This document shows positions 6,370 to 48,268 of a stretch of 50,031 nt of DNA, in pieces. This DNA is from Flavobacteriales bacterium. Lineage in GTDB: Bacteria; Bacteroidota; Bacteroidia; Flavobacteriales_E; Vicingaceae. Position 1 is the stretch's first letter. Each line of letters begins with the position of its first letter. Below the pieces are notes generated by a model. The model was not told the origin of the DNA and ran no database searches. It worked only from the letters and a program-made list of their open reading frames with translations. Both the position numbers and the translations under genes were made by a program. The stretch covers positions 1-50,031 of the forward strand of contig JAJCYO010000078.1 in assembly GCA_029262875.1 (NCBI GenBank), written 5' to 3'.

Positions 6370-8352
6370 TTGAGAAGCATTCTTAAAATAATATGCCTTA
6401 CCTCAGTACTATTTCTTTTTGCTAATCAAAAAGTTCAGAGTCAAACCTTACTTGATAGCTTATATGAAAAATTAAATTCTAACGAACAGGTTCAAGTAAA
6501 ATTGGACTTTTTAAAAAATGCTTCCTACAAGTTACTATACTCAAACCCTGATACAGTTGTTTATTATGCTAACTATGCGCTTAGGTTATGTGAAAAAACC
6601 GAGAACCGACAAGATAAAGCAGATTTTTTAGGCATATTAGGAGAAGCTCACCAACGTTTATCTAATTATTCTGAAGCACTAAAACATACGTTTGAGGCAT
6701 GTAAAATTTGTGAACAAATCAATGACTCAAGCTCTCTTGCTTATAATTACAACACCATTGGTAGTATTTACAGGGTCAGTAATAAATTAGATGAAGGAGC
6801 AGCTTATTATAGAAAAGCACTCAAAATAAGAGAAGAAATGAAAGATTCCAATGGAATTGCTTCTTGCTTCAATAACATTGGTATTGTATACATGATAAAA
6901 GCAGAATACGATACTGGGATGACCATGTGGGGAAATTCACTTAGAATTAAATTAGCCATTGGTGATTCTATTGGAGCATCAACTACAATGAATAACATGG
7001 CCATGTATTACCGTGATATCGGTGAAACTGAAAAAGCACTCAACTATTTTAGTAGCGTGCTTAGAATTAAAAAACGAATTAACGATTATTCAGGAATTAG
7101 TATGGCTTACCATAACTTAGGAGAGCTTTACATTAAACAAGATGAATTTCAAAAGGGCGTTGATTATTACAACAAATCGTTAGAACAAGCCAAAATTTCA
7201 AAATCAAAACAACTCATTAGCTTCCTATACCTCACCTTAGCTGAAACGCACTACAAGCATAATGATTTTAAATTAGCATACGACAACTATGTATTGCACG
7301 ATAACATTCAAGATTCCATTTTCTCTGAAAAAACAGTAAAAAATCTTGATGAAATAGAATCCAAATACGAAAATGAAAAAAAAGCGATTTTGATAGAAAG
7401 TTTGGAAAATGAAAAAGTTGCTCAAAACGAAAAACAAAATTTAATTATTATTTCTTCTGGTTTAGGTTTTTTAGCAATGCTCATCATCATCATCATTGTT
7501 TCAAAAAACTACCGTCAAAAGAAAAAAGATCATACGATTATATCTAATCAGAAAAACATTCTTTCAGAAAAAAATAGAGAAATAACTGACTCCATAACCT
7601 ATGCTAAAAGACTGCAGGAAGCAATTCTTCCTCCACCTCAATTAATTGATGAAAAACTCCCCAACTCCTTTATTGTTTTTCAACCAAAGGATGTAGTAAG
7701 CGGAGATTTTTACTGGTTAGAGTCTGTAGGAGATAACGTCATATTTGCTGTAGCAGACTGTACTGGTCATGGAGTTCCTGGAGCAATGGTTAGTGTTGTT
7801 TGCTCAAATGCTATGAATCGGGCTGTTAAAGAATTTAAGCTAACAGAACCGGCAAAAATATTAGATAAGGTAAGGGAATTGGTGATGGAAACCTTCCGTT
7901 CTGGAGAGCAAGTTGGAGAAATAAACATTGAAGACATTAAAGATGGCATGGACATATCACTCTGCTTATTGAACACAAAAACCAACGAGTTAGAGTATTC
8001 AGGAGCAAATAACCCATTGTGGATATTAAGGAAGGATGGTGAAGAAATGGAGGAGATTAAGGCAGACAAGCAACCGATTGGAGTATACCATGATGCGAAC
8101 AAGCCTTTTACCAATCATACTGTTAAGCTGAACAAAGAGGATTCCATTTATTTATTCTCTGATGGTTTTGCGGATCAATTTGGAGGCGAAAAAGGAAAAA
8201 AATTAAAATACAAACCATTTAAAAACATGCTCATTTCACTACGAGACAAAAGTTTAGGTGAACAAAAAATCATTTTGACCGCTGAATTTAAAAAATGGAA
8301 AGGAGAAATGGAGCAAATTGACGATGTTTGTATCATGAGTGTAAAAATTTAA
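6370..8352 (+). CDS. Membrane TPR-SpoIIE/PP2C phosphatase (kyn operon)
   Basis: 660 residues, starting at TTG 6370 one base after kynU. A signal peptide (1-24, ending VQSQ) is followed by about seven TPR units (about 30-330) placed in the periplasm, one TM (357-376), a helical linker with ITDSITYAKRLQEAILPP (404-422), and a SpoIIE-type PP2C domain (about 425-660). The metal and catalytic motifs are intact: SGDFYW, VADCTGHGVPGAM (D463), KDGMDISL, LFSDGFADQFGG and QIDDVC. The likely role is a sensor phosphatase that dephosphorylates a cytoplasmic STAS-type partner. It overlaps the frame of the downstream monooxygenase region without a gap, so it is almost certainly cotranscribed with the kynurenine enzymes. 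Ligand and substrate are unknown. Confidence 0.9.
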   Translation: MRSILKIICLTSVLFLFANQKVQSQTLLDSLYEKLNSNEQVQVKLDFLKNASYKLLYSNPDTVVYYANYALRLCEKTENRQDKADFLGILGEAHQRLSNYSEALKHTFEACKICEQINDSSSLAYNYNTIGSIYRVSNKLDEGAAYYRKALKIREEMKDSNGIASCFNNIGIVYMIKAEYDTGMTMWGNSLRIKLAIGDSIGASTTMNNMAMYYRDIGETEKALNYFSSVLRIKKRINDYSGISMAYHNLGELYIKQDEFQKGVDYYNKSLEQAKISKSKQLISFLYLTLAETHYKHNDFKLAYDNYVLHDNIQDSIFSEKTVKNLDEIESKYENEKKAILIESLENEKVAQNEKQNLIIISSGLGFLAMLIIIIIVSKNYRQKKKDHTIISNQKNILSEKNREITDSITYAKRLQEAILPPPQLIDEKLPNSFIVFQPKDVVSGDFYWLESVGDNVIFAVADCTGHGVPGAMVSVVCSNAMNRAVKEFKLTEPAKILDKVRELVMETFRSGEQVGEINIEDIKDGMDISLCLLNTKTNELEYSGANNPLWILRKDGEEMEEIKADKQPIGVYHDANKPFTNHTVKLNKEDSIYLFSDGFADQFGGEKGKKLKYKPFKNMLISLRDKSLGEQKIILTAEFKKWKGEMEQIDDVCIMSVKI

Positions 8353-18778: not shown

Positions 18779-19165
18779 TTAATTAAAAGTAGCCAGCCAT
18801 TTTAACGCTTTTGTTTTTGATTTAAACAACTTAATCGGATAAGGTGGTTTGTTAAATTGAATGAAGAAATTACCTAACATTTTTACGGTTAACGAATTAC
18901 CCGTTACAATGGCTTTGGCTAAATTTAATTTAGCAACTTCAGTATTTGCGCCAAATTTTCTTGCTTCTTTGGACACTTGCCATACTTTTCTGGCATCCAT
19001 TAAAACGAGCATTTTCTCTTCTTTTTGAAGTTTCTTTCGAGCTTCAAACGTCTCTTCTGCGGCTTCTAAAGTTATGATCGCATCTTCTTTTATGTCAATG
19101 CGAAAAATACCGTCTTGGATATAAGTGACTGCTGTAGGTGTTTCTAATTTTTCGATTACTGACAT
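18779..19165 (-). CDS. Small STAS/SpoIIAA-like protein, copy 1 of 3
   Basis: 128 residues, no signal peptide or TM, so cytoplasmic. The pattern is: beta hairpin (VTYIQDGIFRIDIKED), helix (ITLEAAEETFEARKKL), strand ending in an acidic residue (MLVLMDARKVWQVSKEARKF), helix rich in Ala/Leu, then a hydrophobic strand-helix with FFIQFNKP and a C-terminal KALKWL helix. This resembles the SpoIIAA-like/STAS-SEC14 group (DUF7793-type in Bacteroidota), read from pattern only. In STAS anti-sigma antagonists a serine near the LxxD strand is phosphorylated; here the nearest candidate is the serine in WQVSKEAR. It is the last gene of a three-copy tandem set, 24 bases after copy 2. Function is unknown. Confidence 0.7.
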   Translation of the reverse strand: MSVIEKLETPTAVTYIQDGIFRIDIKEDAIITLEAAEETFEARKKLQKEEKMLVLMDARKVWQVSKEARKFGANTEVAKLNLAKAIVTGNSLTVKMLGNFFIQFNKPPYPIKLFKSKTKALKWLATFN

Positions 19166-19189
19166 AGTGAGCTAAAGTAACTAATATTA

Positions 19190-19573
19190 TTAAAAAGTGT
19201 CCAACCAAGCCAATGCCTTCTCTTTAGAGTTAAACATTTTAGTTGGACTAGCGGGTTTATTAAATTTCATAAAAAAATTGGCCAATATTTTACTCGTTAG
19301 CGAATTGGTAATTAGAGCCATGGCAATGTTCAAATCTGTTACCTGTTTCGTTGCGAAAAAAGCCCTCGCATCTTTGGAAACTTGCCAGACCAAACTAACA
19401 TCAGACAGCACCTTTACTTTGGCTTCTTTTTGAAAAGACTTTCTTGCCTTCAAATTATCTTGAGCGTGCTCCAACTTCACATCAGCATCCTGTTTAAAGT
19501 TAATATTTAACACATCATCCTCATAATAAAACACTACCGTTTCAGTCTCTATTTTATCCATTACCGGAACCAT
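19190..19573 (-). CDS. Small STAS/SpoIIAA-like protein, copy 2 of 3
   Basis: 127 residues, the same fold pattern as its neighbours: VVFYYEDDVLNINFKQD, LEHAQDNLKARKSF, VKVLSDVSLVWQVSKDARAF, FFMKFNKPASPTKMFNSKEKALAWL. The serine in WQVSKDAR is kept. The start chosen at 19573 overlaps the stop of copy 3 in a TAATG arrangement, a classic sign of translational coupling; an internal ATG at 19561 is a possible alternative. The copies are well diverged outside the core, so the duplication is old. Retention of all three suggests different partners. Confidence 0.7.
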   Translation of the reverse strand: MVPVMDKIETETVVFYYEDDVLNINFKQDADVKLEHAQDNLKARKSFQKEAKVKVLSDVSLVWQVSKDARAFFATKQVTDLNIAMALITNSLTSKILANFFMKFNKPASPTKMFNSKEKALAWLDTF

Positions 19574-19959
19574 TAACGATGTGTCTTCAACCAGGTTAAA
19601 GCGCGCTCCTCCGTTTTGAATAACTTTGTAGGCGTATTGGGTTTGTTGAATTTAATGTAGAAATTACCAATGATTCTTGCTGCCAATGATTTTCCTGTTA
19701 CCATACCCATCGCTTTATTCATTTCGTCAATTTCCTTCTTGGCAGCATATGCTCGCGCGTCCCGATGAACTTGTCCTACTTTTCTTAAATCCACTAACAA
19801 CAAAACCTTTTCACCTTGTTGCATTTGTTTTCTAACCGCAGCACCTTCTATTGCCGCTTCAAGTGTAATATCGGCACCCTCTTTTACTCGCATATAAAGA
19901 ATACCATCCTCCAATTGATAGGTTGATGTAGTACTCTCTTTTAATACAATTGTTTCCAT
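19573..19959 (-). CDS. Small STAS/SpoIIAA-like protein, copy 3 of 3 (first in operon)
   Basis: 128 residues, promoter-proximal member of the tandem set. It keeps the core pattern (TYQLEDGILYMRVKEG, LEAAIEGAAVRKQM, VLLLVDLRKVGQVHRDARAY, FYIKFNKPNTPTKLF, ERALTWLKTH). The serine seen in the other two copies is replaced by histidine (GQVHRDAR), which would prevent serine phosphorylation at that spot if that site is used. It is soluble. Four TPR-SpoIIE phosphatases are encoded elsewhere in the window and are possible partners, but no physical linkage supports this. Family function is not established. Confidence 0.7.
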   Translation of the reverse strand: METIVLKESTTSTYQLEDGILYMRVKEGADITLEAAIEGAAVRKQMQQGEKVLLLVDLRKVGQVHRDARAYAAKKEIDEMNKAMGMVTGKSLAARIIGNFYIKFNKPNTPTKLFKTEERALTWLKTHR

Positions 19960-35903: not shown

Positions 35904-37787
35904 ATGAAAAATATGTTATTTATCTCGTTTTTAGTGCTCAGTTTTGGAGTTCTTGGACAAACGACAAAGGATAAATTAACATATGCCAATCAGCTTTATT
36001 ACTCAAATCCAGATTCTTCTTTTATCATATGTGATGAAATTGCAGAAAAATTAAAAGGGAAAAACTACAATGAATTAGCTGAAGCCAAGCTGTGTAAAGC
36101 ACGCTATCTTTTATTAAAAACCAACTTCGATAAAGCAGCAAAACTGCTTAATGAGGCCAGTGACATTTTTGAAAAAGAACACAATTTACCTCGATTAGCA
36201 AAATGCCATTCACTAAAAAGCATCCTGTTTGGGCGTATTTCAGAACATCAAAAAGCATTACTCCACCAGCGAAAAGCGTTGGAGCTTTACACTGAGGCAA
36301 AAGACATCAAAGGACAAATAGCTTCGCTGACCAACATTTCTTTGGACTTTATTGAAGCTACTCAAAACGATTCCACCTTCTATTACTTATCAAAACTCAA
36401 AAGGTTTATGGATGTAATGGAAGAAACCGACAAATACTTTATGCATCAAAATTTTGGAACCTATTATTACAATGTCTCCAATTTTGATGCTTCGATAGAA
36501 GCCTACAATAAAGCCTTAACAATAGCTGAAAAATTTGAGATGGTCGATAGTAAATCAACCGTTTTGATGCTGATGGCTCACCCTTATATAGCTCAGAAGA
36601 AATACAAACTTGCTGAGCAAAACCTAACTAAAAGTATAGCCATTGCATCCGAAAACAACCTGTTACATGAAAGCAATGAAGCCTATATCCAACTCATTAA
36701 ACTATACGAAATTTTAGGTGATTTTAAACAGGCTTATAAAATTGAAAAGTTGAACGATAAGATTGAAAAGGAAATTTACAACCTGGATAAAATCAATAAG
36801 ATAAATGAGATTGAAACGCAATTAAAGCTCACAGAAAAAGAAAATATTATCACTCAAAAAGAATTAGAACTTAAGAATGAGCAATTGAATACCATTGAGG
36901 CAGAATCAAGAATTACACAGCTAATTTTCATTGTTGCGTTAAGTATTCTCATTATCATTTTTATTGTCATCATATTGTTTAGAGTGAAAAAATTAAACAA
37001 CAAAATTCAAATCCATAAAAAAATGCTGGAAGAAAAGAATACTGAAATTACAGACAGTATTACTTATGCTAAACGAATCCAATCTGCTATTCTGCCTTCA
37101 ATAAGTTCTTTTAAAGCTCATTTGCCCAATTCCTTTATTCTTTACAAACCAAAAGACATTGTTGCAGGTGATTTTTACTGGATGAAAACCGTTGGAGACA
37201 ATATTCTTTATGCAGCCGCAGACTGTACAGGACATGGTGTACCTGGTGCCATGGTTAGTGTTGTTTGCTCTAATTCCTTAAACCAAAGCGTAAAAGAGCT
37301 TCAATCTAAACAACCTTCAGAACTGTTAGAAATGACCCGTAACCTGGTAAAAGAAAGTCTATTTTCTGAGAAGGGGAGCATCAATGATGGCATGGACATT
37401 GCTTTGTGCTCTATTAACTTAAAAGAAAATGTACTCCATTTTTCTGGCGCGAATAATCCGCTTTATATTATTAGAAATGGGGAACTCATAGAGTTAAAAG
37501 GAGACAAACAACCTATAGGCAGTTACTTTAATGAATACCCCTTTAACCAGCATACTTTTGAATTGAAAAAAGGTGATACCATATACTCTTTTACCGATGG
37601 CTATGCTGATCAGTTTGGTGGCCCAAAGGGCAAAAAAATTATGTACAAACAGTTTAAAAAATTGCTCACAAGTATTGTAAATGAGTCTATAGAAAAGCAA
37701 AAAGAAATAATAGATCAAACTTTTGAAAATTGGAAAGGAGAGTTAGAACAAATTGATGACGTTTGCGTAATAGGAGTAAGAATTTGA
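35904..37787 (+). CDS. Membrane TPR-SpoIIE/PP2C phosphatase
   Basis: 627 residues. Signal peptide 1-19 (ending GVLGQ), TPR-like periplasmic region about 25-290, coiled coil about 290-335 (IETQLKLTEKENIITQKELE), TM 339-360, linker ITDSITYAKRIQSAILPS, PP2C domain about 403-627. The metal motifs are intact: AGDFYW, AADCTGHGVPGAM (D440), NDGMDIAL, FTDGYADQFGGPKGKK and QIDDVC. It is closely related in its catalytic half to the proteins at 6370, 39186 and 46163, whereas the TPR halves differ. Four bases separate it from the DUF6370 gene. A -7-like box TAATTTAG ends five bases before the ATG. Target and signal are unknown. Confidence 0.9.
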   Translation: MKNMLFISFLVLSFGVLGQTTKDKLTYANQLYYSNPDSSFIICDEIAEKLKGKNYNELAEAKLCKARYLLLKTNFDKAAKLLNEASDIFEKEHNLPRLAKCHSLKSILFGRISEHQKALLHQRKALELYTEAKDIKGQIASLTNISLDFIEATQNDSTFYYLSKLKRFMDVMEETDKYFMHQNFGTYYYNVSNFDASIEAYNKALTIAEKFEMVDSKSTVLMLMAHPYIAQKKYKLAEQNLTKSIAIASENNLLHESNEAYIQLIKLYEILGDFKQAYKIEKLNDKIEKEIYNLDKINKINEIETQLKLTEKENIITQKELELKNEQLNTIEAESRITQLIFIVALSILIIIFIVIILFRVKKLNNKIQIHKKMLEEKNTEITDSITYAKRIQSAILPSISSFKAHLPNSFILYKPKDIVAGDFYWMKTVGDNILYAAADCTGHGVPGAMVSVVCSNSLNQSVKELQSKQPSELLEMTRNLVKESLFSEKGSINDGMDIALCSINLKENVLHFSGANNPLYIIRNGELIELKGDKQPIGSYFNEYPFNQHTFELKKGDTIYSFTDGYADQFGGPKGKKIMYKQFKKLLTSIVNESIEKQKEIIDQTFENWKGELEQIDDVCVIGVRI

Positions 37788-37791
37788 AATT

Positions 37792-38127
37792 ATGAAAAGA
37801 ACAATTCTCATTATAAGTATCCTACTATTCACAGTAGCTACTCATGCACAGAAAAAAGTAAAGACCTACAAAGTATTAGCGGCATGTGGACAGTGCCAAC
37901 TGGACATGAACTCACCCAATGGTTGTGCGTTGGCCATTCAGTTAGCAGGTAAAAAGTATTGGGTGAATGGTAGCACCATTTCTGACCATGGTGATGAACA
38001 CGGGCCTGATGGCATGTGTAAAACCATTAGAAAAGCCGAAGTGCAAGGAAATATTAAAGGAGATAGAATAAACGCAAGCTCATTTGTGCTCCTTCCTGAA
38101 AAAAAGAAAAGAAAGAAGAAAAAGTAA
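37792..38127 (+). CDS. DUF6370 family secreted protein
   Basis: 111 residues. Signal peptide 1-20 (ending THAQ), then the family pattern VLAACGQCQLDM (C32, C35), GCALAIQLAGKKYWVNGSTISDHGDEHG (C45, H66, H70) and GMCKTIRKAEVQGNI (C76). The four cysteines and two histidines suggest a metal site or two disulfides; family function is not known. The chain ends in a run of lysines (KKKRKKKK) encoded by an A-rich stretch that directly precedes a phased T-tract array. It is probably cotranscribed with the phosphatase four bases upstream. Confidence 0.82.
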   Translation: MKRTILIISILLFTVATHAQKKVKTYKVLAACGQCQLDMNSPNGCALAIQLAGKKYWVNGSTISDHGDEHGPDGMCKTIRKAEVQGNIKGDRINASSFVLLPEKKKRKKKK

Positions 38128-38213
38128 TTTTTTGATCATTCCTGGCTATTTTTTGTCATTTTTGATCATTTTTTGACCATTTTATTGATTTTTTTACCAT
38201 TTTTCAACATTTT
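38128..38213 (+). repeat. Phased T-tract array A
   Basis: Eight T-runs (4-7 T) begin at 38128, 38149, 38159, 38169, 38180, 38189, 38200 and 38210; apart from one missing turn, the step is 9-11 bp. Centre-to-centre spacing averages about 10.2 bp. The array starts directly after the DUF6370 stop codon. Spacer words between tracts (GATCA, GTCA, GACCA) vary. This should be intrinsically curved DNA. Confidence 0.85.
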
Positions 38214-38235
38214 GCAATAAAACATTATCCATCAT

Positions 38236-38760
38236 ATGAAATATAACTTAACCGAAGCCACTGACATTTTAAAGAGAACACCTAAAGTATTAAATGAGCT
38301 ACTAAAGCACCTTCCTGAGAATTGGGCAACGAACAATGAAGGTGAAAACACATGGAGTCCCTTTGATGTTGTTGGACATTTAGTACATGGAGAAAAAACG
38401 GATTGGATCGCCCGAGCCAATATTATTTTAAACAACAACACAGAAAAAACCTTTACTCCTTTTGATCGTTTTGCTCAAGAAAAAGATAGTGTAGGAAAAT
38501 CGCTAAATGAGCTGTTAGCCGAATTTGAAACATTGCGGGCTCAAAATTTAAAAGCACTTTCGTCCCTAAACATCCAACCAGAAGATTATACTAAAGAAGG
38601 TATCCATCCAGACTTTGGGACAGTAACTTTAGAACAATTATTATCGGTATGGGTAGCCCATGATTTAGGTCATATAGCTCAAATATCTCGAGTAATGGCT
38701 AAACAATACAAGACAAATATTGGCCCTTGGAAACAATATTTAAGGGTAGTCAACGATTAA
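38236..38760 (+). CDS. DinB-family protein
   Basis: 174 residues, a four-helix bundle of the DinB/YfiT type. The three histidines of the metal site are visible: H48 in VVGHLVHGE (H51 is the alternative), and H142 and H146 in VAHDLGHIAQISRVMAKQY. In this family a bound divalent metal supports thiol-dependent transfer reactions, but many members lack a known substrate. It is cytoplasmic with no signal. It starts 22 bases after T-tract array A and eight bases before a small membrane protein gene, so these two are probably cotranscribed. Confidence 0.88.
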   Translation: MKYNLTEATDILKRTPKVLNELLKHLPENWATNNEGENTWSPFDVVGHLVHGEKTDWIARANIILNNNTEKTFTPFDRFAQEKDSVGKSLNELLAEFETLRAQNLKALSSLNIQPEDYTKEGIHPDFGTVTLEQLLSVWVAHDLGHIAQISRVMAKQYKTNIGPWKQYLRVVND

Positions 38761-38767
38761 TTAGAAG

Positions 38768-39046
38768 ATGGAACAAGATTTTGGATATCACATATTTTCG
38801 TTGGGCGATACAGAACTCTACTTGTTTATGTTTTTTGCCGTTATGGGTTTAACCGTTTCTCTTCTAATGAGAAAACAAGGAAAAAACCCTATTGTTCCTG
38901 CTTACCTACTTTTTGGCGCATCGGCTATTTTTTTATTGGCAGGTTTATTTACGCCTCCTGATTTAATTTCAAATTTTATATTTTCCATTCCTTCCATACT
39001 TGTTTACGCCATAATTATTGCAGTAAGATTTAATTTAAGAAAATAA
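38768..39046 (+). CDS. Small membrane protein of unknown function
   Basis: 92 residues with three membrane helices (about 14-33 ELYLFMFFAVMGLTVSLL, 43-61 VPAYLLFGASAIFLLAGLF, 68-87 LISNFIFSIPSILVYAIIIA). It has basic ends (RKQGKNP between helices 1 and 2, FNLRK at the C-terminus). No family is recognised. It follows the DinB gene by seven bases and is followed immediately by T-tract array B. Confidence 0.7.
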   Translation: MEQDFGYHIFSLGDTELYLFMFFAVMGLTVSLLMRKQGKNPIVPAYLLFGASAIFLLAGLFTPPDLISNFIFSIPSILVYAIIIAVRFNLRK

Positions 39047-39048
39047 GC

Positions 39049-39123
39049 TTTTTTGCCATTTTTTTGACAATTTCAGCCATTTTTTGATGATTTTAATTGT
39101 TTTTTGTGCCTTTTTATGTTTTT
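39049..39123 (+). repeat. Phased T-tract array B
   Basis: Eight T-runs (3-7 T) begin at 39049, 39059, 39071, 39080, 39091, 39100, 39111 and 39119. Tract centres are 10-10.5 bp apart except for the last step of 8. The array begins two bases after the stop codon of the small membrane protein. All runs are T on the plus strand, as in arrays A, C and D. Confidence 0.85.
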
Positions 39124-39185
39124 ATCAATCTTATTGGCTGGAGACTTAAAAGTTAAAAACAATTATTATCTTCGTTAGCACTTCA

Positions 39186-41015
39186 ATGAAAAATCCAATT
39201 GACATATTAAATCAGCTATTAGCTAAAGCAGAACATACACCTGAAGAATTAGAAATTATACTCTCACAATATTCAAATGCAATAGCAGCCGGTAGCCCTA
39301 ATTTTATAGATAACTATCACCCTAAATTAAAACAACTTTTTTCAAATTATGAGAGTAAAATTGAAATAGCGCCTGGACTAAAAAATTTACTGGAAGCCAT
39401 TACATGCTATTATCAAACCAAATTCGATGATGCTATAGCACCAGCAAAAAAAGCCATTACTTTTTTTACAGCATTAGGACATAATGATTTATTAGGAATG
39501 AGCCATTGGGCTTTTGGAGCTAATTGCCGAAGTTTTGGAGAAATAGATGAAGCAGTAAAACACTTATACAATGGAGTAGAATACATTAATGATAAAGGAA
39601 ATATAGCCTTATATAAATGTTACTGTTATTACCAATTGGCTGAAATAAATGTGAGCATAAAGGACAACCAAGCAGCTCGAAGCAATTATTTAAAAGCAGC
39701 CGAGATGGCTGAAAAATTAAATAATTCTACTGGTATATTTAGAGCTTATAATGGTTTAGGCAATTTATTCATTGTAGAAAAAAACTATCCTGAAGCCTTA
39801 ATTTACCTCAACAAAACATTAGCCATTGAAGGAATAACAAATTCTGAACGTTCCAGGACTTTTTGTGATTTAGGTGATTATTATGCCAAAACCAATGACT
39901 TAGCACAATCTAAAAATTACTACGAACAAAGTGTTGGCATTAGAAAAGAAGCTAACTTAATAAATGCCACCTCTACAGCATTAATTGGATTAGGAAACAC
40001 ATTATTAGCATTAGGATTGATTGATGAAGCAATTGAAAAACTAAATGAAGCATTGATTATTTGTCAAGAATTTAAATCCAAACAAAAACTAATGAACTGT
40101 TACCACTTGCTGGCTCAAGCTTATCAAAAAAATAGCGAGTGGGAATCTTCTGTCCAAGCTTATGAGCAATACGACATCATCCAACAAGAAGTAAGTTCCA
40201 CACAATTGCAAAAAATTTATAAGTTCAAAAACAACAAAATTGAGCAACAAAAAAAACAAATAGAAACAATCCTCACCGAAGTCCATGACAGCATTAATTA
40301 TGCACAAGGGATTCAACAAGCCATCTTGCCATCTAATGGATTGGTAAACTCAAAACTCCCAGACAGTTTTATCCTGTATAAGCCTAAAGATGTGGTTAGT
40401 GGTGACTTCTTTTTTTTAGAGCCAATTGATGACATTGTGATTTATGCCGCAGCCGATTGCACAGGGCATGGTGTTCCTGGAGCGTTAGTTAGTGTTGTTT
40501 GCGTAAATGCCCTGAACCGGAGTGTTCGTGAATTTGGATTAATCAATCCGGCAAAAATTTTAGAAAAAACACGTGAAATCGTTATTCAAACATTTAATAA
40601 AAGTGAGCATGAAGTGAAGGACGGAATGGACATTGCTTTATGTACACTACATGGAAACACATTGAAGTATGCAGGCGCACACAATCCACTTTGGATAATT
40701 AGAAATGGAGAAATAATGGAAATTAAAGCAGACAAGCAACCTGTGGGAAATCACACTGAATTAAATCCATTTACTACACATACTACTGAACTTCTAAAAG
40801 GAGATGTCGTTTATACTTTTACTGACGGATACGTAGATCAATTTGGAGGACCTAAAGGCAAAAAATTCAAGGCCAAAGCTTTTAGAACATTGTTATTATC
40901 TATTCAAGGTAAATCTATGGAGAATCAAAAATCTATACTTGAAAAAACCTTTGATCAATGGAAAGGAGATTTAGAACAGGTGGATGATGTTTGTGTAATT
41001 GGAGTAAAAGTGTAA
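39186..41015 (+). CDS. Cytoplasmic TPR-SpoIIE/PP2C phosphatase
   Basis: 609 residues with no signal peptide and no TM, so unlike the other three it should be fully cytoplasmic. TPR units span about 60-330 (for example YPEALIYLNKTLAIEG, LIDEAIEKLNEALIIC), then a coiled-coil linker (KFKNNKIEQQKKQIETILTE) and VHDSINYAQGIQQAILPS lead into the PP2C domain (about 390-609). Motifs are SGDFFF, AADCTGHGVPGAL (D424), KDGMDIAL, FTDGYVDQFGGPKGKK and QVDDVC. The first metal motif has Phe-Phe where the others have Tyr-Trp. It lies between T-tract arrays B and C. The start ATG 39186 is preceded by a -7-like TATCTTCG at 39167. Confidence 0.9.
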   Translation: MKNPIDILNQLLAKAEHTPEELEIILSQYSNAIAAGSPNFIDNYHPKLKQLFSNYESKIEIAPGLKNLLEAITCYYQTKFDDAIAPAKKAITFFTALGHNDLLGMSHWAFGANCRSFGEIDEAVKHLYNGVEYINDKGNIALYKCYCYYQLAEINVSIKDNQAARSNYLKAAEMAEKLNNSTGIFRAYNGLGNLFIVEKNYPEALIYLNKTLAIEGITNSERSRTFCDLGDYYAKTNDLAQSKNYYEQSVGIRKEANLINATSTALIGLGNTLLALGLIDEAIEKLNEALIICQEFKSKQKLMNCYHLLAQAYQKNSEWESSVQAYEQYDIIQQEVSSTQLQKIYKFKNNKIEQQKKQIETILTEVHDSINYAQGIQQAILPSNGLVNSKLPDSFILYKPKDVVSGDFFFLEPIDDIVIYAAADCTGHGVPGALVSVVCVNALNRSVREFGLINPAKILEKTREIVIQTFNKSEHEVKDGMDIALCTLHGNTLKYAGAHNPLWIIRNGEIMEIKADKQPVGNHTELNPFTTHTTELLKGDVVYTFTDGYVDQFGGPKGKKFKAKAFRTLLLSIQGKSMENQKSILEKTFDQWKGDLEQVDDVCVIGVKV

Positions 41016-41021
41016 ACCTCA

Positions 41022-41098
41022 TTTTTTTAATCATTTTTGGTCATTTATTGTTATTTTTTGGTGTTTTTTGTCATTTTTTGGCAATTTTTACTCATTTT
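41022..41098 (+). repeat. Phased T-tract array C
   Basis: Eight T-runs begin at 41022, 41034, 41044, 41054, 41064, 41074, 41085 and 41095; steps after the first are 10, 10, 10, 10, 11 and 10 bp. Unit words include TTTTTTGGTG, TTTTTTGTCA and TTTTTTGGCA. The array starts six bases after the phosphatase stop codon and precedes a hairpin at 41111. Confidence 0.88.
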
Positions 41099-41110
41099 CA
41101 AAAAACAGGC

Positions 41111-41132
41111 TACTCGGTATAAGTACCGAGTA
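41111..41132. terminator. Hairpin, possible terminator
   Basis: A perfect 9-bp stem TACTCGGTA / TACCGAGTA with loop TAAG lies 96 bases after the phosphatase stop. A T-rich stretch (TTTTCTCTTTTT) begins about 10 bases later rather than directly behind the stem, so termination is plausible but not typical. Confidence 0.5.
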
Positions 41133-41206
41133 AGCTCATTAGTTTTCTCTTTTTATATTTTAGCTTATCAGTAGATTCACTGCCAAAAATTCGGGTAGTA
41201 TCACTC

Positions 41207-41237
41207 TTGTTTCGACTTGTTTCACAGCCTAACTTTA
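41207..41237 (+). promoter_or_regulatory. Promoter of the gene at 41262
   Basis: TTG (41207-41209), 20 bp, TAACTTTA (41230-41237), 24 bases before the ATG. Spacing and both boxes equal those of the Usp promoter at 28532, including the shared CCTAACTTTAT. Confidence 0.55.
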
Positions 41238-41261
41238 TATAGAAATTAATCTTCTATTAAA

Positions 41262-41783
41262 ATGAAATACTTTATTCTTTTCTCACTTGTAGCGTTAATA
41301 AGTATTAACGGCTTCTCCAGACAAAAAATCAAGAAACAACACTTAACGTATTTAGAATACATTAATGAATATGGCAATGACAAAACAAGCATTACCATCA
41401 TTAATATTTTCTTTCAAAAACGAGAATACGCTGGAATTGGAAAAATGTCTTTTCTACCATTAAGCGCATCTGTTACAGCAGTAGCTCCACCGATTGGCAT
41501 TGGATTAATGGCCGTTTCATCTCCTTTATTTGTAAGTGGAATAATTACACGCAACAAATACAGCCATAAAAATTTATTAAAAGCACTAAACGAATACCGA
41601 TCCAATAAAAGTTTATCCAAGAATTTAAAAAAGAAGGTTATCCGAATCCATATTATAGAAGAAGAGATCCATCAAATAGAATTAAGAGAAGCCAGACTCA
41701 TTTCATTAAAAGAAATTAAAAACAAACACATTACAGATGAAAAAAATCGTAAGAAAGACATACTTAGTCATGTATCAAAATGA
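41262..41783 (+). CDS. Membrane-associated protein of unknown function
   Basis: 173 residues. A signal peptide or N-terminal anchor (about 1-18: MKYFILFSLVALISINGFS) precedes a basic segment and a hydrophobic, proline/glycine-rich stretch (about 64-95: MSFLPLSASVTAVAPPIGIGLMAVSSPLFVSGI) that may cross the membrane. The C-terminal third is a highly charged helix (KKKVIRIHIIEEEIHQIELREARL). No family is recognised. It is flanked by arrays C and D, and uses a promoter resembling that of the universal stress protein gene, which hints at stress-linked expression. Confidence 0.65.
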   Translation: MKYFILFSLVALISINGFSRQKIKKQHLTYLEYINEYGNDKTSITIINIFFQKREYAGIGKMSFLPLSASVTAVAPPIGIGLMAVSSPLFVSGIITRNKYSHKNLLKALNEYRSNKSLSKNLKKKVIRIHIIEEEIHQIELREARLISLKEIKNKHITDEKNRKKDILSHVSK

Positions 41784-41838
41784 CAACATTACATTCAATG
41801 AAAAGCTTTTTGCGACCATTAGTAGTTTCTCCATCATC

Positions 41839-41943
41839 TTTTTAGTGATTATTTGTAGTTTTTTGATTGTTTTTGACGTTTTTTAGTCATTTTTATTACT
41901 TTTTGAGCAATTTATTGACATTTTTTGTCTTTTTTGTTAATTT
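41839..41943 (+). repeat. Phased T-tract array D
   Basis: Eleven T-runs (3-6 T) begin at 41839, 41852, 41859, 41870, 41879, 41890, 41900, 41911, 41921, 41930 and 41941. Centre spacing averages about 10.1 bp over ten turns. It ends 20 bases before the -7 box (41964-41971) of the Kir channel gene, so it abuts or forms the upstream part of that promoter. Confidence 0.88.
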
Positions 41944-41975: not shown

Positions 41976-42903
41976 ATGGTATTTAAAAAAATCAAAGAAT
42001 TAACCAACAGTGGTTTTGGTTCAAACATAGACAATGAAGGCGAGCGGTTAATTACTAAAAACGGCAAATTCAACGTAAAGAAAGAAGGAGTAAGCTTTTT
42101 ACAGCGGTTCAATCTATTTCACTACTTAATTAACATGTCTGCCGTTTCTTTCTTTCTATGTTTATTAGGTGGTTTTTTAACCATCAACTTACTCTTTACC
42201 CTTACTTATTTACTAATAGGCTTAGAAGGTTTGCAAGGAAACTACCTCTGGCAACAATTTTTACGATGCCTTTTTCTTTAGCTCCCAAACGTTAACAACT
42301 GTGGGCTATGGGGGATTACATCCTACAGGCAAAATAATTAGTTTAATTGCGAGCTTTGAAGCCTTTATTGGCCTCTTAAGCTTTGCAGTTTCTACAGGAT
42401 TACTCTATGGTAGGTTCTCTAAACCAAAGCCAAAAATCATGTTCAGTAAAAACGCCTTGATTTCTCCTTATCGAGAGATAACAGGCTTAATGGCAAGAGT
42501 AGCCAATCCGAAAAACAACCAATTAATTAATGTAAAAGCAAGTATGATTTTTTCTCAAGTGGAAGACATTGACGGTGCAAAAAAGAGAAAGTTTTACACC
42601 TTAGATTTGGAGATGAGAAAAATTAGCCTTTTTGTTACCAGCTGGACCATCGTTCATCCTATTAGCATAGATAGCCCTTTATTTAATTTAAGTCACAATG
42701 ATTTAAAAGAGAGAAATGCAGAAATGATTCTCTTGTTAAGTGGTTTTGACGAATCATATAATCAAGATATGCACGCGAGAACTTCATACAAATCGGAAGA
42801 AATAATAACAGACGCAAAGTTTGTTTCTGCCATAGGGTTTGGCGAAGGTCAACAATCCGTTATTCGATTGGATAAGTTAAATGACTTTGAAATGATCAAT
42901 TGA
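41976..42903 (+). pseudogene. KirBac-type inward-rectifier K+ channel, split by a 1-base frameshift
   Basis: Frame 1 (41976-42281) gives the N-terminal slide helix and TM1 (LFHYLINMSAVSFFLCLLGGFLT) up to GLEGLQGNYLWQQF, then a premature TAG. One frame over, without any break in homology, comes YDAFFFSSQTLTTVGYGGLHPTG (pore helix and TVGYG filter, in parts), TM2 (IISLIASFEAFIGLLSFAVSTGLLYG) and the cytoplasmic Ig-like domain to 42903. Removing one T from the T5 run at 42258-42262 rejoins both as one protein of about 308 residues. The second frame has no start of its own: its first start-like codon is the valine of the filter. It is either a recent pseudogene, programmed slippage, or a sequence error. 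Confidence 0.88.
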
Positions 42904-46162: not shown

Positions 46163-48268
46163 ATGAAAAAAATACTTTTTTCTGTATTATTCCTCTTCAG
46201 TTTATTGCATGCTAATGCAGTTGAACGATTTCCTAATGATTCCATTAATAGTATTGTTCTTCAAAAAAAAATAAGTGTTGATGAATTCTTAAAAGAAGCA
46301 AGTAGTCTTAGTCATACTGAAAACAAAAACTTCAGGCAACTCATACAAGAACTATTCAATCATGCTAAAAAAACGAAGAATGAAAAATTGAGGGGGCATG
46401 CTTACCATCTATATGCCAGTTATTACGAGAATAACTTACAAATGGATTCTTCTCTTATCTGTATGGAAAAAGCCCTTTCAATCCAAACCGCTATTGGTGA
46501 TTCTGCTGGGTTAATCTCTACTTACTTCGGATTTGGTAATCGCTATGATATACAAGGTGTTGCCGACTCGTCTTTGCACTACTATTTTAAAGCATTAGAT
46601 ATTGCTGAAAAAACAACTGACTCTTTACGAATTGGTTATGCCATGATGGGAATTGGAAACGTATATTCTGAAAACAAACAACCGGAAAATGCAAAAGACG
46701 TTTACAGACAATCGTTGATTTATTTTAGCAAAACCTCAGAAATAGCGATGTCATGGATATACAATAACTTAGGAGAAGTCTATGTATCACAAGACAGTAT
46801 AAATTTAGCCTTAGCACTTTTTGAAGAATCACTAACCATTAAGAAAAAGAACAACGATTGGTACGGTGTCTTATTTACCAACAATAACATTGGAGACATA
46901 TTGTTAAATAAGGGGGAAGACCCTGAAAAAGCATTGGATTATTATTTCCAATCGCTGAGGGCTGGTCAAAAAGCTGGAGTTGAAAAAGAGCAAATAAGTG
47001 TTCCTTACGTGAGCATAGGTGAAGCGTATTTGTTTATGAAAAAGTATGATTTGGCCTTAAACTACCAAGATTCCTCACTACAAATTGCTATAGAATTAAA
47101 TTCTTTGGATCTCATTGCTCGAAATTATTTATTACAAGCTAAAATCTACACAGGTAAAAAAGAATATAAAAAAGCCAATGAAGCTCTGAACATATATGTA
47201 TTATACAATGATTCCTTATTGAGTGAAAAGAGCCTTGAGCAAGTTAATCAACTCTCTGCTCGATATGAAAATGAAAAAAAAGAATTAGAAATAAGTAACT
47301 TAGAAAAAGATAAAAAAGCCCAACGAGCAGAAATAAAACAACAAGAAGCTGAAAACCTCATTTATATTTTAGGGCTTGGCTTAGCTAGCCTCCTCATCTT
47401 TTTTGTAACCATTGCTTTTTTACAAAAAAGAAAAGCCAATATCTTAATTCAAAAACAGAAAGATGAAATTGAAATTCAAAAAGATTTAGTTGAAGAAAAA
47501 AATAGCGAAATATTAGATAGTATTTCTTATGCTCAACGCATACAACAATCTATTCTTCCTCCAAAGAAAGTAGTTAAAGCATATTTACCAGAATCTTTTA
47601 TTCTTTATTTGCCTAAAGACATAGTGAGTGGTGACTTTTATTGGATGGATTCTATTTCCATTAAAAATGATGACATTATATTGTTTGCTGCGGTAGATTG
47701 TACAGGACATGGGGTTCCTGGTGCAATGGTAAGTGTTATCTGCCATAATGCATTAAATAAAGCAGTACAAGAATTCAAACTTACTTCTCCAGCAGATATT
47801 CTGAATAAAGTAGAAGAAATGGTAAAAGAATCATTCTCAGATAAAGACAACAATGTTAATGATGGGATGGATATTGCCTTATGTTCTTTAAATTATAACA
47901 GCAAGGAACTGCAATATGCTGGAGCAAATAACCCCCTATGGATCATTAGAAACAATACTAAAGAAATTGAAGCAATCCATGCAAACAAACAAGGAATAGG
48001 TGGTATTAGAGAAAAAACACCTTTCATTAACCATACAGTTCAACTCCAAAAAGGAGATTCGCTGTATATCTTTAGTGATGGTTATGCGGATCAATTTGGA
48101 GGACCAAAAGGGAAGAAAATAATGCGAAAGCAATTTAAAAAAATACTAATTGATGGTGTAGAAAAAAATGCCAACGAACAACGGGAAACACTAAAGGACA
48201 CCTTTGTAAAATGGAAAGGCAATTTAGAACAAATAGATGATGTTTGTGTAATTGGGGTTAAACTTTAA
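46163..48268 (+). CDS. Membrane TPR-SpoIIE/PP2C phosphatase
   Basis: 701 residues. Signal peptide 1-19 (ending HANA), TPR region about 60-350, coiled coil about 355-395 (SARYENEKKELEISNLEKDKK), TM 400-420, second coiled coil (QKDEIEIQKDLVEEKNSEI) with LDSISYAQRIQQSILPP, then PP2C about 470-701. Motifs: SGDFYW, AVDCTGHGVPGAM (D512), NDGMDIAL, FSDGYADQFGGPKGKK, QIDDVC. It differs from the others in one conserved loop: the others read DKQPIG or DKQPVG, here NKQGIG. It is the longest of the four. Its last bases overlap the convergent gene by four bases. A -7-like TATTTTAG ends four bases before the ATG. Confidence 0.9.
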   Translation: MKKILFSVLFLFSLLHANAVERFPNDSINSIVLQKKISVDEFLKEASSLSHTENKNFRQLIQELFNHAKKTKNEKLRGHAYHLYASYYENNLQMDSSLICMEKALSIQTAIGDSAGLISTYFGFGNRYDIQGVADSSLHYYFKALDIAEKTTDSLRIGYAMMGIGNVYSENKQPENAKDVYRQSLIYFSKTSEIAMSWIYNNLGEVYVSQDSINLALALFEESLTIKKKNNDWYGVLFTNNNIGDILLNKGEDPEKALDYYFQSLRAGQKAGVEKEQISVPYVSIGEAYLFMKKYDLALNYQDSSLQIAIELNSLDLIARNYLLQAKIYTGKKEYKKANEALNIYVLYNDSLLSEKSLEQVNQLSARYENEKKELEISNLEKDKKAQRAEIKQQEAENLIYILGLGLASLLIFFVTIAFLQKRKANILIQKQKDEIEIQKDLVEEKNSEILDSISYAQRIQQSILPPKKVVKAYLPESFILYLPKDIVSGDFYWMDSISIKNDDIILFAAVDCTGHGVPGAMVSVICHNALNKAVQEFKLTSPADILNKVEEMVKESFSDKDNNVNDGMDIALCSLNYNSKELQYAGANNPLWIIRNNTKEIEAIHANKQGIGGIREKTPFINHTVQLQKGDSLYIFSDGYADQFGGPKGKKIMRKQFKKILIDGVEKNANEQRETLKDTFVKWKGNLEQIDDVCVIGVKL

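Follow-up and report, generated by a model that had tools for sequence, protein, structure and literature searches.

Strong natural A-tract bends are textbook physics and have few clear biological jobs. In the phased A-tract bent DNA of the kinetoplast minicircle and of synthetic models, A/T runs of 4-7 follow one another at roughly one per helical turn; all stand on a single strand, and the words between them vary. Work by Tolstorukov and colleagues from 2005 is said to have tied A-tract periodicity to nucleoid organisation, and MraZ is an oligomeric regulator that reads boxes spaced by 10 bp. A statistical excess of curved DNA past the ends of coding sequences, spread over many genes, has been described for E. 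coli and other prokaryotes by Bolshoy and co-workers (PMC516772, PMC4060949). Helically spaced A-tracts have been proposed as a packaging aid together with DNA-bridging proteins in Tong and Mrazek 2014 (PMC3940949), and PMC4081817 has a variable promoter T-tract in H. pylori as its topic. Our literature search, which had most subscription papers outside its reach, found no paper on such arrays in Bacteroidota.

The locus described here lies in a window of 50,031 nucleotides, which is the whole stretch of DNA analysed. Its T-tract arrays resemble the kinetoplast and synthetic models in run length, helical spacing, use of one strand and varied words. Unlike the kinetoplast bend, they are four separate arrays directly past stop codons in a bacterial chromosome, and their bend is a predicted one. 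They share intergenic curvature at gene ends with the prokaryotic DNA described in PMC516772 and PMC4060949, but a few extreme arrays in one neighbourhood take the place of an excess over many genes. Likewise, helical A-tract spacing is common to the arrays and to the nucleoid periodicity treated in PMC3940949, whereas the latter is a signal over long chromosome segments and the former are discrete arrays of 8-11 tracts.

Results

The arrays and their neighbours are listed in order of position.

37792-38127, plus strand: DUF6370 protein gene, upstream of array 1
38128-38213, plus strand: array 1, 8 T-runs with one turn skipped, beginning immediately 3' of the DUF6370 gene stop codon
38236-38760, plus strand: DinB-superfamily gene between arrays 1 and 2, with no match in 13 other same-genus genomes
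38768-39046, plus strand: 92-aa ORF upstream of array 2, membrane-like by eye, no Pfam match
39049-39123, plus strand: array 2, 8 T-runs, beginning 2 nt past the 92-aa ORF stop codon, final run off register
39186-41015, plus strand: TPR-SpoIIE phosphatase gene with many paralogues, lying between arrays 2 and 3
41022-41098, plus strand: array 3, 8 T-runs, beginning 6 nt past the TPR-SpoIIE gene stop codon
41110-41133, unstranded: 10-pair hairpin 11 nt past array 3, rated terminator-like for the minus strand
41262-41783, plus strand: 173-aa ORF without a Pfam match, lying between arrays 3 and 4; looks exported by eye
41770-41886, plus strand: conserved small ORF of 38 aa with a hydrophobic C-terminal half; homologue L223:5412 in a same-genus genome
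41839-41943, plus strand: array 4, 11 T-runs, beginning 55 nt past the 173-aa ORF stop codon, first 5 runs within the small ORF and final 6 beyond it

Our recount agreed with the preliminary description in the tract counts (8, 8, 8 and 11), the plus strand, the coordinates and the skipped turn of array 1. Together the arrays hold 35 runs of 3-7 T, 23 of which are 5-6 long, and T and A account for 217 and 55 of their 343 bases. All four begin 0-55 nt past a plus-strand stop codon, in keeping with the proximity to stop codons described earlier; the other spacers of the window lack the pattern, as had been stated, with no other chain of at least 6 tracts anywhere in the window. The claim of phasing at about 10 bp held as well: lattice fits gave 10.14, 10.04, 10.24 and 10.09 bp per tract for arrays 1 to 4, with a residual SD of 0.29-0.61 bp. 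The last tract of array 2, at a spacing of 8 bp, is out of register. Fourier analysis placed the best period at 10.2-10.3 in each of the four, with a power of 14.2-18.5 against maxima of 8.0-13.4 among 500 base-shuffles each. A firm non-integer period of 10.3 bp, hinted at by the Fourier peak, was weakened by the lattice fits (10.01-10.24) and is therefore not relied on. The fitted period lies near the integer 10.

It had also been claimed that the words between tracts differ while the spacing is kept. The register is indeed held, and no word common to all arrays was found. Order-specific homology between the four window arrays was not found (P=0.015 for one of six pairs, 0.24-0.67 for the other five). 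The words are not wholly free, however, as G is the base after a T3+ run in 18/31 cases in the window arrays versus 22/93 for T4+ runs elsewhere in the window's intergenic DNA (P=0.0007). The base before the T-run is A in 22/31. On the other strand, C and T flank the A-run, which we take to resemble the kinetoplast context.

A third-order Markov simulation trained on the window's other spacers produced no chain of at least 7 tracts in 2 Mb. Independent, identically distributed bases at the arrays' own T-rich make-up gave about 0.05 chains of at least 7 tracts (one in about 5% of tries) and 0.024 of at least 8 per 86 bp. In the 3.94-Mb genome, all 17 matches to a seven-tract pattern (at most 2 mismatches) lie inside the four spacers, as do 29 of the 30 matches to a six-tract pattern at the same tolerance; the sole outside match (C147:51490) overlaps with an ORF on the opposite strand. 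A looser four-tract pattern (2-3 mismatches) has matches throughout the genome, 120 forward and 83 reverse in all, and a three-tract pattern was too weak for use, with 207 matches forward and 214 reverse in the arrays' own genome. A 13-bp control pattern had 3 matches in the same genome. A genome-wide occurrence of strong arrays was rejected. The T-tract pattern is real, rare and concentrated in one chromosomal patch, and this clustering is compatible with a mark of a chromosomal domain, as had been suggested. An origin or terminus within the window was considered and rejected: the GC skew at third codon positions does not change sign between the window's five blocks, and the window therefore seems to be without either.

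Three further species of this genus, which probably belongs to the family Vicingaceae, carry similar and partly weaker arrays; these lie in the corresponding variable neighbourhood of genes but mostly in different spacers. A six-tract search of 13 other same-genus genomes yielded 5 intergenic arrays of at least 7 tracts (G008:C170 left out), 4 of them in this neighbourhood. All eight genus arrays, from 4 genomes, lie at a stop codon or up to 55 nt past it, and in each the sense strand of the gene before the array is the one that carries T. Across the seven that were fitted the residual SD is 0.29-0.61 bp; two arrays of G013 are weak, with a Fourier power within the range of shuffles. Orthologous spacers are usually without arrays, and the one downstream of the DUF6370 gene, judged by eye, has none in any of 10 relatives, so that conservation at fixed places is not supported. 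Absence from close relatives, named beforehand as evidence against the proposal, was therefore found with respect to position; yet three species have arrays elsewhere in the neighbourhood.

Twenty stretches from the family, chosen irrespective of arrays, had no array of at least 6 tracts in 30,250 intergenic bp, nor did 528,631 bp around symporter relatives elsewhere. Among the spacers that adjoin the cysteine dioxygenase gene in the dioxygenase/symporter cluster of other genera, 3/11 (G015, G047, G065) have a chain of 6-7 tracts and 8/11 have none; a fixed association with the symporter gene was rejected on this count and remains a lead only. In G284, G055 and G306, the sense strand past the stop carries A-tracts, not T-tracts. 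Similar arrays in other Bacteroidia (G308, G422) have periods of 12.2-12.5 bp, and among class genomes the 13-bp control matched 28/395 versus 9/395 for the 10-bp pattern, with many 13-bp matches coding by eye. The class as a whole thus gave no sign of favouring 10 bp over 13 bp, and both results speak against a purely helical rule.

Strong intrinsic curvature, which had been expected from the phasing, was borne out as a prediction. Based on two simple wedge models, the four window arrays rank in the top 0.03-0.88% of 9991 80-bp windows, and in run length, helical spacing and predicted curvature above their surroundings they match phased A-tract DNA. The computed curvature is model-dependent. 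In the AA-wedge model, each array surpasses the most curved of 200 base-shuffles; under Bolshoy-type parameters, arrays 1-3 are no more curved than the extreme among 200 base-shuffles, and equal curvature was computed for several further stretches of the window. Curvature would also arise if the tracts were divided between the two strands, yet every tract is T on the sense strand.

A comparison with degenerate minisatellites gave a mixed picture: arrays 1, 3 and 4 exceed the default TRF score of 50 (72, 71 and 55, with units of 10/20/30 bp), and array 2 scores 39. A difference from minisatellites is that the words of the arrays are so diverged that tandem ancestry is undetectable in array 2 and some others and weak elsewhere. 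In 5/8 genus arrays the letters of the words show more repetition than they do after shuffling (P<0.05, uncorrected), and TRF scores stand out in only 2/8 when the unit order is shuffled (P<=0.05). Word likeness is greater within than between the eight genus arrays (P 0.02); the four window arrays alone gave no within-array word likeness (P 0.54). When the register was compared with permuted tract and word lengths in the five of eight genus arrays that were testable, the P values were 0.136, 0.032, 0.003, 0.011 and 0.064, and 6e-5 combined. A 10-bp tandem unit holds its register unaided if indels are rare, and the register is therefore no proof of selection. In G306, a species from another part of the class, eight perfect GATTGATTTT units have degenerate T-tract units on the flanks, and the corresponding spacer of its relative G055 holds a similar array; because the repeat copies are perfect, they are probably recent.

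Discussion

Several readings place the arrays in gene expression. Promoter enhancement, suggested in the preliminary description, is not general because one of the eight genus arrays (in G013, after the symporter gene) sits between converging ORFs. Termination by the array itself, suggested likewise, is unlikely because none of the four arrays (38128-41943) has a plus-strand terminator-like hairpin and two genus arrays have a separate hairpin 3' of the array. The same hairpin results weigh against a broader RNA-level element, in which periodic U-tracts at mRNA 3' ends would slow RNA polymerase, cause its release or recruit a protein that binds U-rich RNA. Such an element would agree with the T excess of the window arrays and with T on the sense strand at the gene end in 8/8 genus arrays, but the arrays are not a genome-wide 3'-end feature, G284, G055 and G306 carry A-tracts on that strand, and RNA gives no reason for a register of about 10 bp; we consider it unlikely. 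In RNA folding of 8 stretches, five had z between -0.8 and +0.1, and strong folds were obtained for array 3 (z -3.65, with the hairpin at 41110-41133 included), G002 (z -3.56, with stems at both array ends) and G013 (z -3.24, with the hairpin after the array included). No Rfam model matched the window at the gathering score. An operator array, whose phased repeats an oligomeric regulator would read as MraZ does, is brought to mind by the relative L090, where TTTTTACCAC repeats stand at 10-bp spacing upstream of a gene that reads as mraZ by eye, and by the 7-tract T-arrays in the cysteine dioxygenase/symporter cluster spacers of G047 and G065. The combination of T5 and a 5-base word at 10-bp spacing is like that of the window arrays; the exact repetition of the word ACCAC in L090 is not, as the window arrays have no common word. 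Their neighbour genes are not mraZ, and an array between converging ORFs also argues against an operator, so that this reading is very improbable. The least credible reading, to which we give almost no weight, is that the T-rich periodicity is coding and reflects hydrophobic helices of small membrane peptides. It draws on the conserved small ORF, which takes in the first five T-runs of array 4 and differs from its homologue at third positions in 7/10 differences over the first 14 codons. However, shuffling the units of arrays 1-4 gives open frames as long as the real ones (P 0.58, 0.77, 1.0 and 0.37), and array 4 stays in register past the stop of the small ORF (6 tracts, 10.09 bp); coding was rejected for the arrays with the exception of this ORF. 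An integron-like cassette is a further candidate reading, raised by the position of the arrays past stop codons.

We tentatively favour, at not quite even chances, the explanation that the arrays are eroded T-tract tandem repeats of about 10 bp which, at the 3' ends of genes, make up curved DNA of the phased-A-tract kind, with a fixed bend at gene boundaries. A unit of T3-7 and a short word would have grown by tandem repetition in spacers directly past stop codons of one variable neighbourhood, and the units would then have eroded. With a unit length near one helical turn, the tracts would stack on one helix face and give a predicted bend that we put, very roughly, at 110-160 degrees. Physically, this would most likely amount to a fixed strong bend where one gene borders on the next; the bend would be prone to occupy the tip of a supercoiled loop, or a nucleoid protein with a preference for bends would favour it. 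Such a bend may act in the cell, and selection may keep the register. A possible though doubtful alternative is that the arrays are neutral degenerate minisatellites, in which slippage makes and maintains T-rich repeats of about 10 bp in a gene-turnover hotspot and the phase is a functionless by-product of unit length. The tandem traces in 5/8 genus arrays, the lack of conserved positions, the arrays of non-helical period in G308 and G422 and the perfect copies in G055 and G306 all suit it. Array 2 has nevertheless kept its T-tracts and register with no detectable tandem ancestry, and a reason is needed for four arrays in four spacers, near sense-strand stop codons, within 3.8 kb of a 3.94-Mb genome. 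A more ambitious proposal, which we regard as improbable, is that the arrays are a re-deployable, sequence-independent curved spacer repeatedly placed at gene 3' ends, which would fix the supercoil tip between gained genes and insulate or organise a gene-acquisition hotspot, with selection on tract spacing and not on words.

The locus is compact and carries four extreme predicted bends that are missing in the orthologous spacers of the close relatives read and present nearby in sister species. It is thus a natural experiment on whether intergenic curvature is kept by selection or simply comes with the growth of repeats.

The arrays and their locus

The window, 50,031 bases long, is the entire contig C78 of a draft genome of 3.94 Mb. 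From 37.8 to 42.0 kb there is a row of plus-strand genes, in the order DUF6370, DinB-like, 92-aa ORF, TPR-SpoIIE, 173-aa ORF and a split inward-rectifier potassium-channel gene, and the spacers between them hold arrays of T-runs (tracts), with spacings from lattice fits:

Array 1: 38128-38213, plus strand, 8 T-runs, 10.14 bp per tract, start 0 nt from the stop codon
Array 2: 39049-39123, plus strand, 8 T-runs, 10.04 bp per tract, start 2 nt from the stop codon
Array 3: 41022-41098, plus strand, 8 T-runs, 10.24 bp per tract, start 6 nt from the stop codon
Array 4: 41839-41943, plus strand, 11 T-runs, 10.09 bp per tract, start 55 nt from the stop codon

The counted T-runs are on the plus strand without exception, and mutual alignment of the four arrays revealed no likeness beyond style. 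A G stands directly 3' of the tract in 18/31 cases in these arrays versus 7/36 in the other arrays of the genus (P=0.002).

Other features of the window were noted. The channel gene (41976-42903, IRK_C domain) is divided into two ORFs in different frames, whereas the homologues in genomes G005 and G011 are single ORFs; the split is either a pseudogene or an assembly error. A 38-aa ORF (41770-41886) overlaps the end of the 173-aa gene and is conserved in a same-genus genome (L223:5412) with early differences mostly at third codon positions, which makes it probably a real small membrane protein. The four TPR-SpoIIE phosphatase genes (6370-8352, 35904-37787, 39186-41015 and 46163-48268) belong to a large signalling-phosphatase family, with 48 matches in this genome; of the 13 other same-genus genomes, 12 have 27-50 matches and G012 has 9. 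Three successive minus-strand ORFs of 127-128 aa (18779-19959) may be tandem duplicates, judged by size and position only.

Rarity of the pattern

The four phased arrays of the preliminary description are real and were well described. Their best-period Fourier power was 14.2-18.5, above the shuffle maxima of 8.0-13.4 (500 base-shuffles per array). Simulating 2 Mb with a third-order Markov model fitted to the remaining spacers gave no chain of seven tracts, and i.i.d. bases with the T-richness of the arrays yield such chains at about 0.05 per 86 bp. The arrays are not a product of chance. Their confinement to these spacers, claimed earlier for the window, extended to the whole genome: all 17 matches to a seven-tract pattern (at most two mismatches) fell in the four spacers, as did 29 of 30 six-tract matches (at most two mismatches) and 14 of 15 four-tract matches (at most one). 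The lone outside six-tract match overlaps an ORF; the four-tract one (contig C55) lies in a stretch that, by eye, looks opposite-strand coding and resembles a sequence in G010. Looser patterns gave scattered matches, and a 13-bp control pattern gave three. The 3,367 bp outside ORFs in the window contain four intergenic chains of at least six tracts; 20 stretches of family genomes, selected irrespective of arrays and totalling 378,543 bp with 30,250 bp outside ORFs, contain none.

Arrays in related genomes

Seven-tract matches were found in 10 of 46 family genomes. Clusters in G024, G042, G008, G009 and one of two in G068 were rejected as coding by ORF overlap. Nine intergenic arrays in six genomes were left, four of them in this genome, whose arrays were the starting point of the search, and single ones in G002, G001, G003, G064 and G068. 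Two of the five outside arrays (G002, G001) are in the neighbourhood of this window, taken as contigs with symporter, DUF6370, 173-aa, FAD-oxidoreductase or SpoIIE homologues; the G001 link consists of two contigs, on each of which the SpoIIE gene at 35904 has a partial homologue, and the ORF preceding that array is truncated by the contig end. A looser six-tract search added two arrays, both in G013 and in this neighbourhood (8 and 10 tracts by chaining, Fourier power not above shuffles). Over the 13 other same-genus genomes it gave five intergenic arrays of at least seven tracts (G002, G013 twice, G001, G003), four of them in the neighbourhood; this count leaves out the place G008:C170, whose sequence looks like MraZ boxes, and six-tract matches outside the genus were examined in part. 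In the stretch L090, TTTTTACCAC repeats at 10-bp spacing precede an apparent mraZ gene; the same letters are present in G024, G049 and G008. We take the L090 repeats to be MraZ boxes.

A stop codon precedes all eight arrays of this genome, G002, G001 and G013, with T on the sense strand of that gene. One array starts at the stop codon itself and the rest at most 55 nt downstream; the next ORF is co-directional in seven cases and convergent in one. A fixed position in relatives was not borne out: none of 10 relatives has an array downstream of the DUF6370 gene, and none of five has a strong one upstream of the channel gene, where G005 has a weak six-tract one. Only one spacer, that upstream of the 173-aa gene, bears arrays in more than a single species, namely in G000 and G002. 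In other family genera, chains of 7, 7 and 6 tracts (G047, G065, G015) lie in spacers of a cysteine dioxygenase/PLP decarboxylase/symporter cluster, two such clusters having a seven-tract T array; 8 of 11 such spacers have no chain, though G050 and G066 have shorter phased clusters. Ten further family stretches, most picked for 173-aa or DUF6370 homologues, gave one array, in a G003 stretch picked for it. The adjacency of the window's symporter homologue to cysteine dioxygenase and PLP decarboxylase in other family genera (L402-L408, L410, L412-L414) suggests a taurine or hypotaurine role.

Comparison across Bacteroidia

The seven-tract 10-bp pattern, with at most one mismatch, was searched in 395 genomes of Bacteroidia sampled evenly from a larger group; nine, this one included, matched:

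G055, G306, G304: perfect or nearly perfect tandem repeats
G297, G315: poly-T or TTTTC runs
G423: coding-like by eye
G284, G332: degenerate arrays, that of G332 within a doubtful 116-aa ORF

The 13-bp control pattern matched 28 of the 395, many resembling lysine/alanine-rich coding by eye. Two of these, G308 and G422, have spacer arrays with periods of 12.2-12.5 bp, so T-tract arrays in Bacteroidia are not always helically phased. The G308 array (L376:3214-3400) has 14 tracts of T5-9 at a 12.2-bp period, out of helical phase. The 12-bp register is looser, with a residual SD of 1.1-1.3 bp versus 0.29-0.61 in the eight 10-bp arrays fitted.

Origin and physical meaning of the arrays

TRF found arrays 1, 3 and 4 (scores 72, 71 and 55) and missed array 2 (39) at the default score. 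Repetitiveness exceeded that of shuffled word letters, the words being the bases between tracts, in five of the eight genus arrays (P<0.05, uncorrected), and two of eight stood out against shuffled unit order. When all eight arrays were compared, words resembled each other more inside an array than across arrays (P 0.02), an effect absent from the four window arrays alone (P 0.54). G306 has eight perfect GATTGATTTT units with degenerate T-tract units on either side, and the corresponding spacer of G055 carries a similar array. These scores, likenesses and repeats point to a history in which tandem growth would have come first and erosion of the words afterwards. The matching spacers L380:2596-2680 and L381:2514-2640, with GATTGATTTT/GATTCATTTT repeats, apparently show a T-tract repeat of 10 bp that expanded recently.

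The earlier proposal of curvature gives the best physical reading. Two wedge models predict bends of 110-159 degrees per 80 bp for the window arrays, all of which fall within the most curved 0.03-0.88% of 9991 windows. All four exceed each of 200 base-shuffles under the AA-wedge model, but only array 4 does so with Bolshoy-type parameters, by which other stretches of the window (e.g. near 7.2, 29.2 and 45.9 kb) are equally curved. An A6 tract is reported to bend DNA by 17-21 degrees (PMC8510488), which over eight in-phase tracts is of the same order as the prediction. Of the physical predictions, an intrinsic bend is therefore the most secure. Tested by permuting the lengths of tracts and words, the register gave P 0.003-0.136 (three below 0.05) in five of the eight genus arrays, three being left out for a word longer than eight bases, array 1 included. 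This hints at selection, but a kept register also follows from a fixed unit length and few indels. It is possible, if on the doubtful side, that the arrays are neutral degenerate minisatellites whose phase is a by-product of repeat growth, a reading that gains weight, at the cost of the preferred one given below, from the outcome of base-shuffling under Bolshoy-type parameters and from the low Fourier power of the two arrays in G013.

A role in RNA alone is unlikely. The bias of T to the sense strand and the closeness to stop codons speak for a role in RNA, such as the termination suggested earlier, but hairpin terminators were not found at the window arrays, separate hairpins lie downstream of array 3 and of one G013 array, the arrays have no genome-wide use, and those of G284, G055 and G306 have A on the sense strand.

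Our preferred reading, held tentatively and at somewhat under even likelihood, is that eroded T-tract tandem repeats of about 10 bp form curved DNA with phased A-tracts at gene 3' ends. In the literature, A-tract periodicity is linked to nucleoid compaction with bridging proteins (PMC3940949), and curvature is noted at terminators and downstream of coding sequences (PMC516772, PMC4060949); a cellular effect of the bend in this organism is proposed only. The arrays share with known phased A-tract DNA the spacing of tracts at about one helical turn, and are a striking case of this known kind, probably of tandem-repeat origin.
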